Positions 8,944-18,913 of a DNA stretch of 64,000 bases are shown one piece after another. Position 1 is the stretch's first letter; each line of letters begins with the position of its first letter. The stretch covers positions 2,728,001-2,792,000 of the forward strand of contig CP052876.1 of the NCBI GenBank assembly GCA_020881835.1, written 5' to 3'. Source of the stretch: Kineosporiaceae bacterium SCSIO 59966 (GTDB lineage: Bacteria; Actinomycetota; Actinomycetes; Actinomycetales; SCSIO-59966). The notes below the pieces were generated by a model. It did no database searches. It was not told the DNA's origin and saw only the letters and a program-made list of their open reading frames with translations. The translations under genes and the position numbers were made by a program.

Positions 8944-9036
8944 CGGTCCATTGTGGCGCCGCGGTCGCGGCCGCGGGGACTACGCCGGTCGGGTGATGCG
9001 CCCGGCCACTCGTACGGGCGCCGGGGCGGGACGCCG

Positions 9037-11214
9037 ATGCCCCTGGCCGTGAGACGTCCCGAGCAGGTCGCCCTCGCGGTGCTCGCTGCCGCGCTGCTCG
9101 GCTACGTCGTCCTCGGCGCGTCCGGACCCGAGCTGCCCGGCGTCTACGCGGCGATCGCGGTCGGTGCCCTGGTGACCGCGGCGACGGCGCTGCGACGGCA
9201 CCCGCCCGCGCGGCCCCGTCCGTGGCGGTGGGTGCTCGCCGGGATGACCGGCTGGGTGGCCGGCGACGTCCTCTGGGAGGTCGAGACCGGGCTGCTCGAG
9301 GTCACCGGCTTCCCGACCGGGGCGGACGTGCTGTACCTCGCCGGTTACCTGGCGCTCGGCGTCGGCGTCCTCACGATGGTGCCGCAGCGCGACCGCCGCT
9401 CGGACGTCGGCGACCTGCTCGACGCCGCCATCGTGACCGCGTGCGTGGCCGTGCCGCTGACGGTGTTCGTCCTGCTCCCGGCCGTGGAGGACCCCAGTCT
9501 CACGCCGCTGGGGGTGGTGGTGACGGCGGCCTACCCGCTGCTCGACCTGTTCCTGCTCGCCGTGCTCGTTCGGCTGCTGCACTCCACGGGCGCCCGGTCG
9601 GCGCCGGTGTGGCTGCTCACCGCCGCTGTGACCGCCGAGCTCGTCACCGACGTCTCCTACCAGGCCTGGACCCTGGCCACCGGGTTCGACCCGCAGTCGG
9701 TCTGGTTCGACGCCGGCTGGCTCCTGGGCTACCTGCTGCTGGCGGCCGCCCTGTGCCTGCGCACCGACGGCGCGGTCATTGCACGCCCGGCCCGGCTCGG
9801 CGAGGAGCCCTGGCGGGGCCGGCTCGCCGTCCTCGGCCTGGCGGGCGTCGTCCCGGTCGGCACCCTCGTCGTCGACGCGCTGACCGGCGAGCCGGTCCGG
9901 TGGCAGGTGCACGCCGTGGCCGCGCTCGTCGCGGTACTGCTCGTCGGCGCCCGGTTCGCCACCCTGCTGGCCCAGGTCCAGTCCGCTGCGCGAGAGCTCT
10001 CCCGGCTCGCCCGACACGACCCGTTGACCGGGGCGCCGAACCGGCGCAGCTGGGACCACGCGCTGCGCCGCGCCACCGACCGGGCCCGCCAGGACGGCCG
10101 GCCGCTCAGCGTCGCGATGCTCGACCTGGACCACTTCAAACGGTTCAACGACGAGCACGGCCACCTGGCCGGCGACACGCTGCTCCGCGAGGCGTTCACC
10201 GCCTGGCGGGACCACCTCGGCCCCGAGCACGTCATCGCCCGGTACGGCGGGGAGGAGTTCGCGCTGCTGTTCCCCGGGACCGACGTCTCGCAGACCCGCC
10301 GGCTGCTCACGCGGCTGCGCGCGGTCACGCCCCACCAGCAGACCTTCTCCGCCGGAGTCGCGCGCTGGGACCCCCGGACCCCACCGACGACCGCCCTGGA
10401 CGCCGCGGACGCCGCCCTGTACGAGGCCAAGCACCGCGGCCGGGACCGGGTGGTGGTCGCCCGGACGTCGACGGACGACGTCGGCGAGCCGCCACCGTTC
10501 GAGATCGTCGTCCAGCCGGTGGTCGAGCTGGCCACCGGCCAGGTGGTGGGGTACGAGGCCCTCCCCCGGTTCGCCGCCGACGAGGACGCCAGCACCGCCG
10601 TCGCCGCCGCGCACGACGCCGGCTACGGCGACCTGCTCGAGGCCGCGGTGCTGCGCGCCGCGCTGGCCCTCTCCGGCCGGCCGGAGGGCACCGACCTGTA
10701 CCTCGCCGTCAGCGCCTCGGCCGTGGACTCGGCCCGGTACCACGAACAGCTGCCCGACCGCCTCGACGGCGTCGTCCTCGGACTCACCGCGGACGACGAC
10801 GTCGTGGACTGGCCGGCCCGTGCGTCGCTGCTCGACGACCTGCGCCGTCGCGGGGCCCGCGTGGCCGTGAACGACCTGGGTGACGGCGCGGGGGACCTGG
10901 AGCGGTTCCTCACCGTCCGCCCGGACGTCGTGCGGCTCGCCTCCCGGCTCGTCGCCGGCGTCGCCGGCGACCCCGGTCGGCAGCGGCTCGTGGCGGCGGT
11001 CGCGCGACTGGTGGCCGAGTCGGGTGCGGCGGTCTGCGCCGACGGGGTCGACACGGCGGAGGACCTCGCCGCCCTGCGTGCCACCCGGGTGGCGCTGGTG
11101 CAGGGGGACGCGCTCGGCTCGGCCGCGGTGCACTGGGCCATCGGCCGTCCGCGGCAACCGGCCGCTCAGGTCGGCCCCGGACGGGACGGACCGGTCCTAG
11201 CATCGGGCACGTGA
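9037..11214 (+). CDS. Membrane diguanylate cyclase with degenerate EAL domain
   Basis: A 725-residue protein. About eight hydrophobic helices fill residues 1-320, then a GGDEF domain with an intact active site (RYGGEEF) and the LDLDHFKRFNDEHGHLAGD metal/substrate segment, so it should make c-di-GMP at the membrane. The residues before GGEEF read GPEH, so the RxxD inhibitory site is absent. The C-terminal EAL domain keeps YEAL but has lost most catalytic residues: the usual E-x-TE is GLTADD, the DD pair is ND, the KID lysine is replaced (VVRLA) and AEGVE reads ADGVD. It is therefore probably not a phosphodiesterase. The stop overlaps the next gene by 4 nt. Confidence 0.9.
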   Translation: MPLAVRRPEQVALAVLAAALLGYVVLGASGPELPGVYAAIAVGALVTAATALRRHPPARPRPWRWVLAGMTGWVAGDVLWEVETGLLEVTGFPTGADVLYLAGYLALGVGVLTMVPQRDRRSDVGDLLDAAIVTACVAVPLTVFVLLPAVEDPSLTPLGVVVTAAYPLLDLFLLAVLVRLLHSTGARSAPVWLLTAAVTAELVTDVSYQAWTLATGFDPQSVWFDAGWLLGYLLLAAALCLRTDGAVIARPARLGEEPWRGRLAVLGLAGVVPVGTLVVDALTGEPVRWQVHAVAALVAVLLVGARFATLLAQVQSAARELSRLARHDPLTGAPNRRSWDHALRRATDRARQDGRPLSVAMLDLDHFKRFNDEHGHLAGDTLLREAFTAWRDHLGPEHVIARYGGEEFALLFPGTDVSQTRRLLTRLRAVTPHQQTFSAGVARWDPRTPPTTALDAADAALYEAKHRGRDRVVVARTSTDDVGEPPPFEIVVQPVVELATGQVVGYEALPRFAADEDASTAVAAAHDAGYGDLLEAAVLRAALALSGRPEGTDLYLAVSASAVDSARYHEQLPDRLDGVVLGLTADDDVVDWPARASLLDDLRRRGARVAVNDLGDGAGDLERFLTVRPDVVRLASRLVAGVAGDPGRQRLVAAVARLVAESGAAVCADGVDTAEDLAALRATRVALVQGDALGSAAVHWAIGRPRQPAAQVGPGRDGPVLASGT

Positions 11215-13976: not shown

Positions 13977-14585
13977 TCAGTTTCCTCCTTCGGACGCCGG
14001 ACGCTTGGCCGGCGTGCGTGTACGGGTGGTGGCCGTCTTCGTCGAAGTCCGCTTCGTCGCAGCCCGCTTCGCCCCGGTCCGCGTCGTCGCAGCCGGTTTC
14101 GGAGTGATCCGCTTGGTCCCGGTCTGCTTGGTCCCGGTCTGCTTCGTCGCGGTCGCCCGCCGCCTGCTCTGGCGCGTGGCCTGCGCGCCAGCCGCTCCGG
14201 CCAGCGCCTCGTCGACGGCCTCGACGACGCCCTGCGACGCAGCACCCTCCCGCTCGTTCTCGGTCCGGAAGGTCGTGTAGATGTCGAGCAAAACCTGACG
14301 CTGTCGCTCGGTGAGGTGGGGGTCGGCGAGCACGGCGGTCTCCACCTCGATCCGGTCGCCGTGGTCCTCGAGCAGGCCAGCCCGGACGTAGAGCGCCTCG
14401 GCGGAGATGCGCAGCCCCTTCGCGATCTGCTGCAGCACCTCAGCGCTCGGCTTGCGCAGCCCGCGCTCCACCTGGCTGAGGTACGGGTTGGACACCCCGG
14501 CGGCCTCAGCGAGCTGACGCAGGGACAGCTTCGCGGACTCACGCTGCTCCCGCAGGTAGTCACCGAGCTGCTCGGTCACCCTCAT
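13977..14585 (-). CDS. XRE-family regulator paired with the HBHA-like gene
   Basis: About 202 residues. An XRE helix-turn-helix occupies residues 1-75 (LGDYLREQRESAKLSLRQLA, then AGVSNPYLSQVERGLRKPS), followed by a helical linker and, from about residue 125, a Thr/Lys/Arg/Ala-rich tail with repeats such as TKQTGTKQTGTK. The tail resembles that of the downstream HBHA-like protein. The gene order matches Rv0474/hbhA. Two ATG codons 9 nt apart (14594 and 14585) are possible. The GGGGG run sits too close to the first and about 10 nt from the second, so the second was used. It probably regulates its own operon. Confidence 0.85.
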   Translation of the reverse strand: MRVTEQLGDYLREQRESAKLSLRQLAEAAGVSNPYLSQVERGLRKPSAEVLQQIAKGLRISAEALYVRAGLLEDHGDRIEVETAVLADPHLTERQRQVLLDIYTTFRTENEREGAASQGVVEAVDEALAGAAGAQATRQSRRRATATKQTGTKQTGTKRITPKPAATTRTGAKRAATKRTSTKTATTRTRTPAKRPASEGGN

Positions 14586-14907
14586 CGCCGACATGCCCCC
14601 ATGGTGCTATCTACAGCAAGCAAATGCAAGCCCAGAGCAAGCACGAACCGCGGTGAGCCCAGCTGCGTGTGGGCTCACTGGCTGCGCACCGCGCGCTACC
14701 GACCGACGATTGGCGTCATTGCGGCATGGCCGGTCGGACCACGGTGCCGGGATGCTCGACGAGCAGGGCCGCGAGCCCCCGCGCCTCTGTTCCCCGGCAG
14801 GGCGCGGGGGTCTCGCACACCACAGCCGCAGGCCACAGCCGCGCACCGAGCACCCAGCACCAAGCACCAAGCACCGCACGTCGGGCGCCTCTGCCAGGAT
14901 TCGCCGC
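14586..14907. promoter_or_regulatory. Divergent regulatory region of the XRE operon
   Basis: No gene was found in this 322-bp stretch. Three GCAAG motifs (14616, 14626, 14637; CTTGC on the minus strand) spaced 10-11 bp lie about 30-55 bp upstream of the XRE gene. That helical phasing makes them a candidate operator for its own product. Near the other end, a run of AGCACC(A/C) microrepeats (about 14844-14878) precedes the beta-keto acid cleavage gene. Confidence 0.35.
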
Positions 14908-15747
14908 ATGACCGGCACGCTCATCACTGTCGCCCCGACCGGGGCCGAGGTCGACAAGGCCCAGTGGCCCCAGCTGCCGACCAGCCTCGAGGAGCTCGTC
15001 ACCGAGGCCCAGGCGTGCGAGGCCGCCGGGGCTGCGATGGTCCACGTGCACATCCGGGACGACGAGCACCGCCCGACCCTGGACCTCGGCCGCCTGAAGG
15101 CCACCGTCGAGGCTCTCCGGGAGCAGACCTCCCTCGTCGTCCAGCTGTCCACCGGGGGAAGCGTCCACGACAGCCTCGACAGCCGCCTGCGGGTGCTCGA
15201 CGCACTGCCGGACTCCTGCTCGCTGACCTGCGGCAGCGTGAACTTCGGCGACGACGTCTTCCTCAATCCCTGGCACCTCATGTCGGACCTGTACGTCCAG
15301 GCCCGGGAGCGGCAGATCGTGCCGGAGTTCGAGATCTTCGACCTCGGACACGTCGCCTCGCTGCGCCGCCTCATCGACACCCACGGCCTCCCGTTCGGCG
15401 GGCGCGTCCACGTCGACCTCGTCACCGGCGTCCCTGGCGGGATGCCGGGGACGACGCACGCGGTGGTGGCCGCGGTGCAGATGCTGCCGGCGGAGGTCAC
15501 CTCCTGGTCGGCCACCGGGATCGGACGCAGCCACCTGCCGGTGATGGCCGCGGCCCTGTCCCTCGGCGGGCACCTGCGGGTCGGCATGGAGGACAATCTC
15601 ATGTACGACCGCGGCCGGCCGGTCTCCGGCAACGTCGAGCTCGTCGAGCGGGCAGCCCGGTTGTCCACTGAGCTGCAACGACCGCCGCTGTCGACCGACG
15701 AGGCGCGTACTCTGCTGGGTACCACCGACCGGAGGGGAACGTCGTGA
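14908..15747 (+). CDS. Beta-keto acid cleavage enzyme (BKACE, 3-keto-5-aminohexanoate cleavage family)
   Basis: A 279-residue TIM-barrel Zn enzyme of the BKACE family (formerly DUF849), which condenses acetyl-CoA with a beta-keto acid to give acetoacetate and a new acyl-CoA. Motifs include ITVAPTGAEV at the N-terminus, AGAAMVHVHIRDDEHRPTLD with the HxH metal ligands and catalytic Arg region, SLTCGSVNFGDDVF, and HLRVGMEDNLMYDRG near residue 225, which contains the VGxED signature. The keto acid used cannot be told. The ATG was chosen where homology begins. The stop overlaps the RsiG-like gene by 4 nt, an unexpected partner. Confidence 0.87.
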   Translation: MTGTLITVAPTGAEVDKAQWPQLPTSLEELVTEAQACEAAGAAMVHVHIRDDEHRPTLDLGRLKATVEALREQTSLVVQLSTGGSVHDSLDSRLRVLDALPDSCSLTCGSVNFGDDVFLNPWHLMSDLYVQARERQIVPEFEIFDLGHVASLRRLIDTHGLPFGGRVHVDLVTGVPGGMPGTTHAVVAAVQMLPAEVTSWSATGIGRSHLPVMAAALSLGGHLRVGMEDNLMYDRGRPVSGNVELVERAARLSTELQRPPLSTDEARTLLGTTDRRGTS

Positions 15748-16295
15748 GCGACGAGGTCACACTGGCTCATCGCCGTCTGGACCGGGTGCTGCAGCCTGGT
15801 CTGGTCGAGCGTGCCGGCTCACTGGGGGACGACGAGCTGCTGGCGCTGCGGGCCGAGGCGGCCGAGGAGGAGGACGAGCTGTCCTACCGTCGCCGTCTCC
15901 TGCAGGGCCGGCTGGACCTGCTGCGCGCCGAGCTCGACCGACGCCGCAACGGCACAGGCCACGCCGTCCGCGGCGGCAGCGACGCTGAGCTGGTCGCCGC
16001 GCTCAGCGCCGTCCTCGTCGACCGGGCACGCCGCAGCTCAGGGACCCACCTCGCCGAGCCACGCCCGTCCACTGCGCCGCGGCGCCGCCGCGCCGACGAG
16101 GTGGCCGTGGACGACGTCCACCTCAGTCAGCCGGCCGACCTGACCGACGACGAGCTCACCGGCGCGGTCGAGCAGCTCGCCGCGCTGGAGAGGCATGTCT
16201 CGGCGGTCCGCCGCGAGGTCCAACAGGTCGCCGACGCCCTGGACGCCGAGGTGGAGCGCCGGGTCTCCGTCGGCGCCCTGTCCGCCGCGGACTGA
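15744..16295 (+). CDS. rsiG: RsiG-like c-di-GMP-binding anti-sigma factor
   Basis: A 183-residue protein with two charged helices separated by a ~50-residue linker. Each helix carries a perfect E(X)3S(X)2R(X)3Q(X)3D motif: E43-S47-R50-Q54-D58 and E149-S153-R156-Q160-D164. In Streptomyces RsiG the same two motifs line an antiparallel coiled coil that binds a c-di-GMP dimer and then sequesters the flagellar/sporulation-type sigma factor WhiG. Each motif is preceded by a similar (S/D)L-x-DDEL segment, which points to internal duplication. The GTG start overlaps the BKACE stop by 4 nt. No sigma factor gene lies in the window, so the partner is inferred. A terminator-like hairpin follows. Confidence 0.88.
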   Translation: MSDEVTLAHRRLDRVLQPGLVERAGSLGDDELLALRAEAAEEEDELSYRRRLLQGRLDLLRAELDRRRNGTGHAVRGGSDAELVAALSAVLVDRARRSSGTHLAEPRPSTAPRRRRADEVAVDDVHLSQPADLTDDELTGAVEQLAALERHVSAVRREVQQVADALDAEVERRVSVGALSAAD

Positions 16296-16336: not shown

Positions 16337-16438
16337 ATGCTCGAAGCCGTCTTCACCGCCCTCCTCGTGCTGGCGTCACTCGTCATCGGCTGGTTCGCCG
16401 TCTACACGGTGTACAAGCTGTACAAGGGCCAGAGCTGA
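16337..16438 (+). CDS. 33-residue single-pass membrane protein
   Basis: A short open frame encoding 33 residues, MLEAVFTALLVLASLVIGWF and then AVYTVYKLYKGQS. It has one hydrophobic helix (about residues 5-25) and a basic, Tyr/Lys-rich end, so it is probably inserted with the C-terminus in the cytoplasm. It ends 1 nt before the GTG of the nitrobindin gene, which suggests co-translation. I do not recognise a family. The pattern of a short acidic start, hydrophobic core and YKLYKG tail is protein-like rather than random. No strong ribosome site precedes it. Confidence 0.55.
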   Translation: MLEAVFTALLVLASLVIGWFAVYTVYKLYKGQS

Positions 16439-16439
16439 C

Positions 16440-16976
16440 GTGCCGATCGAGATCGGGCCGGACACGCCCCCGGCACTGGTCCCCTTGGCCTGGCTGATCG
16501 GTCGCTGGGAGGGCGCCGGCGTCGTCGGCTACCCGACGATAGAGGAGCGCCGCTTCGGGCAGGAGGTCGAGTTCTCCCACGACGGGCGGCCGTTCCTGCA
16601 CTACCGCTCGCAGGCCTGGCTGCTGGACGACGACGGCAACCAGGTCCGGCGGCTCGCCTCCGAGACCGGGTACTGGCGGGTGCCGCAGCCGGCGGACGAC
16701 GGCGCCCACCCCGAGCAGGCCGACCAGCCCGGCACCGAGATCGAGGTGCTGCTCGCCCACCCGACCGGGATATCCGAGATCTACCTCGGCCGGGTCCAGG
16801 GACCGCGCATCGACCTCGTCACCGACGTCGTGGCACGAACGAGCACGGCCAAGGAGTACACGGCGGCGCAACGGATGTACGGCCTCGTCGACGGGGACCT
16901 CATGTGGGTGATGGACATGGCGGCGATGGGCCAGGAGATGCAGCCGCACCTGTCGGCCCGGCTCAAGCGCGTCTGA
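16440..16976 (+). CDS. Nitrobindin (FABP-like heme protein)
   Basis: A 178-residue beta-barrel protein of the nitrobindin/DUF1794 family. Conserved features are LAWLIGRWEGAGVVGYPTIEE near residue 20, the FLHYRSQAWLLDDDG and ASETGYWRVPQ strands, and EVLLAHPTGISEIYLG. A His close to the C-terminus (QEMQPHLSARL) matches the proximal heme ligand. Related proteins bind ferric heme in a shallow pocket, react with NO and isomerise peroxynitrite. The GTG start follows the small membrane protein by 1 nt. A ~280-bp noncoding stretch with no recognisable feature follows the gene. Confidence 0.9.
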   Translation: MPIEIGPDTPPALVPLAWLIGRWEGAGVVGYPTIEERRFGQEVEFSHDGRPFLHYRSQAWLLDDDGNQVRRLASETGYWRVPQPADDGAHPEQADQPGTEIEVLLAHPTGISEIYLGRVQGPRIDLVTDVVARTSTAKEYTAAQRMYGLVDGDLMWVMDMAAMGQEMQPHLSARLKRV

Positions 16977-17257
16977 CCAGCCCCAGCCATCCGCACAAGG
17001 CCTCCACCGGCCCCACCGTGGCGACGAGCCGGCGCTCGACCTGCCCCGCAGCGGCCGACCGGGTCGCCCAGCCTTGGGCGATTCCCGCCGGTCGTCGACC
17101 TGCCTCCATGTCCCCGCACTGCAGGTGGGCACCGGCCTGTCGCGCGCCGTCCGCACCCGCGAGTCCACCCGGACGGGTGACCCGGACAACTGCGCCCAGT
17201 ACAGGTCGGCGGGTTCGGTGCCGATACCGGCGGGCAAGAAGGACGAGGTGGTCGGGT

Positions 17258-18913
17258 ATGCCGAGCAGGACGGGGGACGTGCCCGTGCGGGGACCTGCCG
17301 GTGCGCTGGAGCGCGTGGGCGACTTCGGGCCGCTGCACCCGCTTGTGATGGTGGCGCACGGGCGCTACCTCGTCGGGGACCACGAGCAGGCTGCCGCCGC
17401 GTGCGCCTGGCTGCTCCCGGTCGCGCGCCTCGCCGGCGACGACCGGACCCAGCGCTACCTGCACTACCTCGCCGCCATCGTCGCCCAGGAGCTCGGCCGG
17501 CTCGACGAGGCCGAGGAGCAGGCGCGCGCCGTACTCGCCGGACCGGCGGACCCGCTGGACCCGCTGTGGCGGGCCAAGGGCCTGAGCCTGCTCGCCGAGC
17601 TCGACCTCGAACGCGGTCACCCGGCCGAGGCGATGGACCGGATCGCGGCGGCGACCCGGCTCGTCGAGGGCGCCCCGCTGACCTACCAGCACCTGTCCGC
17701 CACCCAGGCGATCGGTCTGGCGCTGCGCCGGCTGCACCTGTACGAGCAGTCCGACGCGATGCAGATGAGCCTGCTGGGGCACCCCGGCGGCAGCCTCCTT
17801 CTGGACGCCGTCGTGCTCGCCCAGGCGGCCCTGACCCGCACCCTGTGGGGTGTCGTGGTCGAGCTCACCGGTGACCACGAGCAGGCACGTGCGCACTACC
17901 TGGAAAGCCTCAGCCGGGTGTACCGGCTGCGGCGTCTCGCCCAGCGCCTGGGCCACGACGAGTTCGCCCACCGCGCGGACCTGCACGAGGGCTTCCTCCG
18001 CCACCGGCTGGGGGACACCGACGGGGCGTGGCTGATGCTCACCACCAGGTGGGACGGCGTCCCGCCGCGCGAGACCCTGCCGGAGACCCGGCTCGGGCAC
18101 ACCGCGCTGGCCCTGCTGTCGGCCGAGGCCGGGGACGGCGAGACCGCGGCCGAGCACGTCGCCGCCGCCCGCCGGGACACGACGGACGACGTCCTGCTGG
18201 CCTGGTCGTTCGCCGTCGCCGCCCAGGTCGCCGCCGCGGGCCGGCCGCCCACGGCGGCCGCCACCGAGTGGCGCGAGCTGGCCCGGTACGCCATCAGGGA
18301 GCTGCTGACCGACCGGACCGACCGCTACGAGTCGCTGCGGCACCGCATCCTGCTGGCCGAGCTCTCCGAGGAGAGCGCGACGGCCGTGGCCAGCGCCCGG
18401 CTCGACCCGTTGACCGGGGTGGGCAACCGGCGGCTGCTGGAGGACCGGCTGGCCGCCGGCGGCCGCTACAGCGCGGTGTTCGTCGACATCGACCACTTCA
18501 AGCGGGTCAACGACGAGCACTCGCACGCCGTCGGCGACGCCGTCCTGGTGCGCCTCGGCGAGCTGCTGCGCCGGCACTGCCGCGCCGACGACCTCGTCGT
18601 GCGCTACGGCGGGGACGAGTTCGTCGTCCTCGTGCCCGGGGAGCAGCGGGACGCCGAGCGGGTCGCCACCCGGGTGCTGGCGGCGGTGCGCTCGCAGGAC
18701 TGGGGGGGCTTCGCCGAGGGGCTGCGGGTGAGCGTGTCGATCGGGGTCAGCCGGCAGCGGTCGGTGGGCAGCGCGCTGCGGTGCGCCGACGGCGCCCTGC
18801 AGCAGGCGAAGCGCCGCGGCCGGGACCGGGTCGTCGTGGCCGCCGAGACCGGTCCGCGGGAGCCGTCACCCGAGTCCGCGGGCGAGCCGCCGGCACGGTT
18901 CGCCGGCGCCTGA
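17258..18913 (+). CDS. TPR-like diguanylate cyclase
   Basis: A 551-residue cytoplasmic protein. Residues ~20-370 are alpha-helical with tetratricopeptide-like repeats (for example ARLAGDDRTQRYLHYLAAIV and LGRLDEAEEQARAVL). A C-terminal GGDEF domain has LDPLTGVGNRRLLEDRL, FVDIDHFKRVNDEHSHAVGD and the active site RYGGDEF. The RADD sequence five residues before GGDEF is a product-inhibition (RxxD) site, so activity is probably feedback-controlled. The ATG was chosen for the AAGAAGGACGAGG ribosome site ahead of it and because the upstream frame is low-complexity. It may supply the c-di-GMP read by the nearby RsiG homologue; this is inferred from proximity only. Confidence 0.88.
   Translation: MPSRTGDVPVRGPAGALERVGDFGPLHPLVMVAHGRYLVGDHEQAAAACAWLLPVARLAGDDRTQRYLHYLAAIVAQELGRLDEAEEQARAVLAGPADPLDPLWRAKGLSLLAELDLERGHPAEAMDRIAAATRLVEGAPLTYQHLSATQAIGLALRRLHLYEQSDAMQMSLLGHPGGSLLLDAVVLAQAALTRTLWGVVVELTGDHEQARAHYLESLSRVYRLRRLAQRLGHDEFAHRADLHEGFLRHRLGDTDGAWLMLTTRWDGVPPRETLPETRLGHTALALLSAEAGDGETAAEHVAAARRDTTDDVLLAWSFAVAAQVAAAGRPPTAAATEWRELARYAIRELLTDRTDRYESLRHRILLAELSEESATAVASARLDPLTGVGNRRLLEDRLAAGGRYSAVFVDIDHFKRVNDEHSHAVGDAVLVRLGELLRRHCRADDLVVRYGGDEFVVLVPGEQRDAERVATRVLAAVRSQDWGGFAEGLRVSVSIGVSRQRSVGSALRCADGALQQAKRRGRDRVVVAAETGPREPSPESAGEPPARFAGA

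Follow-up and report, generated by a model that had tools for sequence, protein, structure and literature searches.

The gene at 15744-16295 of the window (by which we mean the whole 64,000-nucleotide stretch of DNA analyzed) most likely codes for an RsiG of the ordinary twin-motif kind, because its product matches the RsiG family and because the same genome encodes a WhiG that keeps the three residues used for contacting c-di-GMP. We put at about 0.83 the probability that this protein, RsiG1, acts as a monomer that binds a c-di-GMP dimer, holds the WhiG encoded at C1:925527-926543, and frees it when c-di-GMP falls. RsiG1 is a further RsiG of an already known type, and the part of the analysis that deserves pursuit is a second branch of the family. 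The features of the locus are as follows:

13977-14594, minus strand: HTH regulator (PF01381), part of the block near rsiG in some relatives
14908-15747, plus strand: BKACE-family gene, 279 aa, with HVH and ED residues present (PF05853, 299 bits)
15731-15737, plus strand: GGAGGGG ribosome-binding site for rsiG1, within the BKACE gene
15744-15747, plus strand: GTGA overlap of the BKACE stop and the rsiG1 start
15744-16295, plus strand: rsiG1, twin-motif RsiG-type anti-sigma gene, 183 aa (PF22802, PDB 6pfj, AF2 model, Foldseek)
15870-15917, plus strand: c-di-GMP motif 1 of rsiG1, EDELSYRRRLLQGRLD, E43-D58 (E43, S47, R50, Q54, D58)
16188-16235, plus strand: c-di-GMP motif 2 of rsiG1, ERHVSAVRREVQQVAD, E149-D164 (E149, S153, R156, Q160, D164)
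16440-16976, plus strand: THAP4-type heme-binding (nitrobindin-like) gene of the conserved neighborhood (PF08768, 195 bits)

Identification of RsiG1

Translation of rsiG1 starts at a GTG codon, with the GGAGGGG sequence six bases 5′ of it forming a good ribosome-binding site. The initial annotation had described the product as an RsiG homologue in which residues 43-58 and 149-164 match E(X)3S(X)2R(X)3Q(X)3D exactly; both motifs were confirmed, and the RsiG identification is supported. No further copy of the motif turned up when all six frames of the window were scanned strictly. When the RsiG1 protein was shuffled 300,000 times, one motif arose in 157 cases and two motifs in 0. Homology is borne out by Pfam, by the match to a solved sequence, by the predicted fold and by the tree: RsiG1 matches the Pfam RsiG family PF22802 in two stretches with 90.6 bits (cut-off 27), and its nearest solved chain is the Streptomyces venezuelae RsiG of PDB 6pfj (E 2.8e-16). 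Among canonical RsiG proteins, 95 of 109 carry both motifs when either Q or H is allowed at the glutamine position.

The AF2 model of RsiG1 (A3-based, pLDDT 83.8) contains the expected long helices at residues 29-68 and 135-175, mostly at pLDDT >90. Searched with Foldseek, the model returned the RsiG chains of 6pfv and 6pfj at ranks 1-4 (best E 3.1e-4, TM 0.59-0.71), followed by an unrelated match at E 1.1. By prediction, RsiG1 scores as an antiparallel coiled coil, as 6pfj does. In the tree, RsiG1 lies within the canonical branch beside the protein of locus L041 (support 99/93).

WhiG and its co-occurrence with RsiG

The genome is a single contig of 3,095,448 bases with one canonical WhiG, which at 282 bits clears the cut-off of 189.6 and matches the S. 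venezuelae WhiG at E 2e-110. A WhiG-like sigma factor, whose absence had been named in the initial annotation as evidence against its proposal, is thus present. The S. venezuelae protein contacts c-di-GMP through K57, G61 and R62, according to PMC8325347. All three residues are conserved in the WhiG of this genome, in 30 of 30 WhiG loci (L146-L175), and in L139 and L193-L195.

Across 394 genomes of the class, a PF22802 place accompanied a sigma of at least 240 bits to TIGR02479 in 114 of 114 genomes and one of at least 200 bits in 119 of 122, both thresholds having been set after the lists were inspected, and 9 of the 128 genomes with RsiG had no sigma of at least 200 bits; the genomes counted are related, many of them belonging to one genus (g91), and are not phylogenetically independent. 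Co-occurrence is looser in the order sample, where 22 of 59 genomes have a WhiG of at least 240 bits, 18 of these with a PF22802 match at E ≤ 0.001 and four with none (G039, which is 73% complete, and G008, G027 and G044 of family f9). The same two reservations, on the relatedness of the genomes and on the choice of threshold, apply to these counts. G008 and G027 have T-S-R or T-T-R as the contact triad of their WhiG-like sigmas, and G362, which also has no PF22802 match, has R-S-R. A counter-example is G352, where K-G-R is retained and PF22802 finds nothing, the RsiG3 query (see below) giving the only match, a weak one.

From the gene, its motifs and family, its predicted fold, its conserved neighborhood, and a WhiG with the contact residues, we infer a course of events of the Streptomyces kind. 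The two motif helices of RsiG1 would pair into an antiparallel coiled coil, the coiled coil would bind a c-di-GMP dimer, and RsiG1 so armed would hold WhiG; a fall in c-di-GMP would then release WhiG for transcription of its regulon. A search for that regulon with a flagellar-type promoter consensus gave 0 exact matches and, with two mismatches allowed, 4 matches against 3 in a reversed control, so that the regulon was not recovered.

Three RsiG genes in one genome

A PF22802 search of the genome found three RsiG-type places. Within the order sample of 198 genomes, 52 have PF22802 matches at E ≤ 0.001, always in a single place except for the source genome with its three; the source genome is also the sole representative of its genus and family in the sample. 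Besides rsiG1, the genes are:

C1:418749-419342: RsiG2, motif 1 exact, motif 2 with H for Q
C1:227973-228455, minus strand: RsiG3, between nth and crp (PF22802, 46.9 bits)

RsiG2 has a 2-oxoacid:ferredoxin oxidoreductase gene on one side and the flagellar cluster on the other. It is oriented convergently to flagellar genes, flhA among them, and the gene for the flagellar sigma is some 7.7 kb away. The cluster itself is large (C1:408001-444000, loci L014 and L015), with flhA recognized by the Pfam FHIPEP family and the other genes by reading their translations; scanning it with the flagellar sigma promoter consensus gave no good match. RsiG3 retains no motif: helix 1 is missing the E and the Q, and several motif residues of helix 2 are gone as well. 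Searching relatives with RsiG3 gave a weak match in G003 (E 2.4e-5, with one internal stop), and a decayed copy may therefore exist there. In the tree RsiG2 branches off at the base of the canonical group, whereas RsiG3 belongs to the other group; both branches are long, and their exact places are unsure.

Either of the two additional proteins could share WhiG with RsiG1 or split it between them. A stronger version of this idea holds that the paralogues have divided the labor, with RsiG2 as the working switch on FliA or WhiG and RsiG1 acting on another sigma or being redundant. The nearly intact motif pair of RsiG2 and its proximity to the flagellar sigma gene speak for such a division; we nevertheless regard it as unlikely, as RsiG1 is the copy that groups with the single RsiG of relatives, the flagellar sigmas of the source genome and of 15 relatives are all without the K-G-R contacts, and the flagellar regions of those 15 relatives yielded no RsiG ORF. 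FliA was set aside as a partner of RsiG1 for the same want of K-G-R in flagellar sigmas.

The BKACE gene and the wider neighborhood

The protein encoded upstream of rsiG1 matches PF05853 over its whole length (profile positions 3-273 of 274) and has the HVH and ED residues, which we take to be catalytic. Against the NCBIfam equivalogs its best score is 270.3 bits where the cut-off is 382, and it stays under every equivalog cut-off, so that none of these subfamilies of known substrate claims it.

The GTGA overlap pointed out in the initial annotation is present, and the question raised there of whether the junction is conserved in relatives has a divided answer. Among 109 scored rsiG loci (L017-L125, some representing the same genome met twice), BKACE is directly upstream in 21 and 1.3-2.4 kb upstream in 4; in the remaining 84 no BKACE precedes rsiG on its strand, 6 of these having <1.2 kb of upstream DNA. 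The 21 adjacent cases come from separate families, including Pseudonocardiaceae (Kutzneria, Actinophytocola, Saccharothrix, Kibdelosporangium), Frankiales-type MAGs, and families f4 and f18 of the same order. Gaps vary where the genes are adjacent, with start codons that would yield the same 4-base overlap in L075, L097, L106 and L108. The block near rsiG includes other genes as well: a THAP4-type gene occurs in 63 of the 109 loci, within the DNA covered for each, and the HTH gene lies near rsiG in several relatives.

Some observations on these loci stand apart from the pairing. Five of them (L053, L073, L083, L109, L118) bear record titles that seem wrong, such as Spirochaetaceae, Bifidobacterium breve and Melainabacteria, and are likely mis-binned or misnamed; Streptomyces sp. 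NP160, another of the doubtful titles, has the same RsiG as G086 of family f7. Locus L029, of the same order as the source genome, has an RsiG identical to that of Kineococcus xinjiangensis (L059), and Kineococcus belongs to the order. Just 5′ of the THAP4-type gene of the window, positions 16337-16438 on the plus strand hold an ORF of 33 residues, probably with a single membrane stretch. Small ORFs of this kind (WFAVYVVYRLY-type) precede the THAP4-type gene in 45 of 62 loci, pointing to a conserved and apparently unnamed small membrane protein.

Adjacency in separate families, together with the lack of BKACE in 84 of the 109 loci, makes the pairing look like inherited gene order. Co-transcription and translational coupling of BKACE and rsiG1 would be a plausible outcome of such an order once compacted, with no metabolic input implied. 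The initial annotation had entertained a tie between c-di-GMP signaling and acyl-CoA metabolism, for which these counts give no support. In its fuller form that proposal would make BKACE and rsiG1 a functional unit, in which a beta-keto acid or acyl-CoA product, or co-translation, sets the level or activity of RsiG1 and so links metabolism to WhiG. The overlap and the recurring adjacency are what one would expect of such a unit, but most rsiG loci do without BKACE, four hold it at a distance, spacing is variable, and the accompanying THAP4-like, HTH and other genes are what inherited order predicts; we therefore consider it improbable, somewhat more so than a division of labor among the paralogues. 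A specific metabolic coupling was accordingly set aside, the pairing being part of a wider block and missing from most rsiG loci. Coupling through expression is possible, and nothing suggests acyl-CoA sensing.

GGDEF genes near rsiG1

The window contains genes for two GGDEF proteins. The first, a GGDEF-EAL protein (8983-11214, plus strand) 4.5 kb upstream of rsiG1, has a GGEEF motif, and several catalytic residues of its EAL domain appear to be replaced (e.g. NDLG for the usual DDFG); the protein is probably a cyclase whose EAL part is inactive. The second (16904-18913, plus strand) directly follows the rsiG1 block, within about 1 kb, and an overlap of its ORF with the THAP4 gene leaves its start uncertain. 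GGDEF genes also occur near rsiG in L049, L058 and L109. A local signaling role for these neighbors is possible by analogy with Streptomyces, where the GGDEF-EAL protein RmdB displaces RsiG from WhiG (PMC13232838).

That RsiG1 carries its motifs yet works as no c-di-GMP switch here, for example owing to an altered WhiG-docking loop, is very improbable: the linker between its helices does depart from the order consensus PSRVGEHRR and is modeled at low confidence (residues 91-110, pLDDT about 53-61), but the window encodes two GGDEF proteins, and both RsiG1 motifs are intact while those of RsiG3, from the same genome, are lost, so that constraint seems to persist on RsiG1.

A second RsiG branch

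RsiG3 is the member in this genome of a second branch, which we label RsiG-B. The split between RsiG-A, with RsiG1, and RsiG-B, with RsiG3, has support of 100/99 in the tree, and the two branches are homologous by hhalign (probability 98.3). Twenty further RsiG-like loci were chosen from the weaker PF22802 places in the class sample. In 16 of these 20 the gene has crp on one side and nth on the other, the names Crp and Nth resting on reading of the translations and on conservation in relatives. Nineteen of the 20 members have an exact motif 1 and 4 have both motifs exact, with mostly one or two substitutions in the other second motifs; RsiG3, with no intact motif 1, departs from these 19.

An alignment of RsiG-B proteins from 17 of the 20 loci (A4) has 17 of 17 rows matching PF22802, and its profile finds 6pfj at E 5.4e-17. 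At a threshold of at least 140 bits, the profile marks 82 places in 76 of the 394 class genomes, spread over 26 families. A further RsiG match is carried by 59 of the 76 genomes, and six genomes of family f27 have two RsiG-B places, one copy being at nth-crp and the other elsewhere in loci L201, L204 and L206. The RsiG-B genes of family f31 (L130, L143, L144) belong to type IV pilus clusters, where they neighbor pilB- and pilT-type ATPase genes and a WhiG-like sigma is encoded at a distance of 6-7 kb. Family f45 shows two arrangements: in G334 the RsiG-B gene and that for a WhiG-like sigma point away from each other, and in G539 the RsiG-B ORF continues into such a sigma gene. The WhiG-like sigmas near the f31 and f45 genes retain K-G-R. 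As a separate observation, the PilB-type ATPase beside RsiG-B in L144 carries an MshEN domain, a binder of c-di-GMP, and this one cluster may therefore hold two c-di-GMP control points.

PMC8325347 reports a second RsiG copy, by reciprocal BLAST, in one of 134 genomes, and the partial texts returned by our literature searches on RsiG describe no second branch. One hypothesis, for which we see about even odds, is that RsiG is a two-branch family of c-di-GMP anti-sigma factors serving different surface-appendage programs, in which the ancient RsiG-B would also hold a WhiG-like sigma via c-di-GMP and the copy by the flagellar cluster would be a further recruitment to motility.

Comparison with known systems and significance

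The closest counterpart of RsiG1 is the RsiG-(c-di-GMP)2-WhiG system of S. venezuelae (6pfj, 6pfv), with which it shares twin motifs, similar length, the predicted coiled-coil fold and a WhiG with K-G-R; the source genome adds RsiG2, RsiG3, the overlap of rsiG1 with BKACE, and a flagellar cluster. The S. venezuelae protein is reported to bind c-di-GMP at micromolar strength, and more tightly once WhiG is present. The (RsiG)2-(c-di-GMP)2-WhiG system of Rubrobacter radiotolerans (7lq2-7lq4) shares the motif and the conserved helix 1 (E 8.7e-8 to 3e-7), but its RsiG has one motif and forms a homodimer (PMC8325347), whereas RsiG1 has two motifs. With the BKACE family, such as the 3-keto-5-aminohexanoate cleavage enzyme, the upstream gene of the window shares the whole-length match and the HVH and ED residues, and it differs from enzymes of known substrate in its equivalog scores.

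PMC8325347 describes RsiG-WhiG as the sole sigma/anti-sigma pair for which targeting by c-di-GMP is known. The rsiG1 locus extends this pair to an unplaced actinomycete with a flagellar cluster. If RsiG-B binds c-di-GMP, the actinobacterial layer leading from c-di-GMP to sigma factors would be wider than reported. One RsiG branch would then also be tied to type IV pili by gene order, a link that in Rubrobacter comes from promoter mapping.
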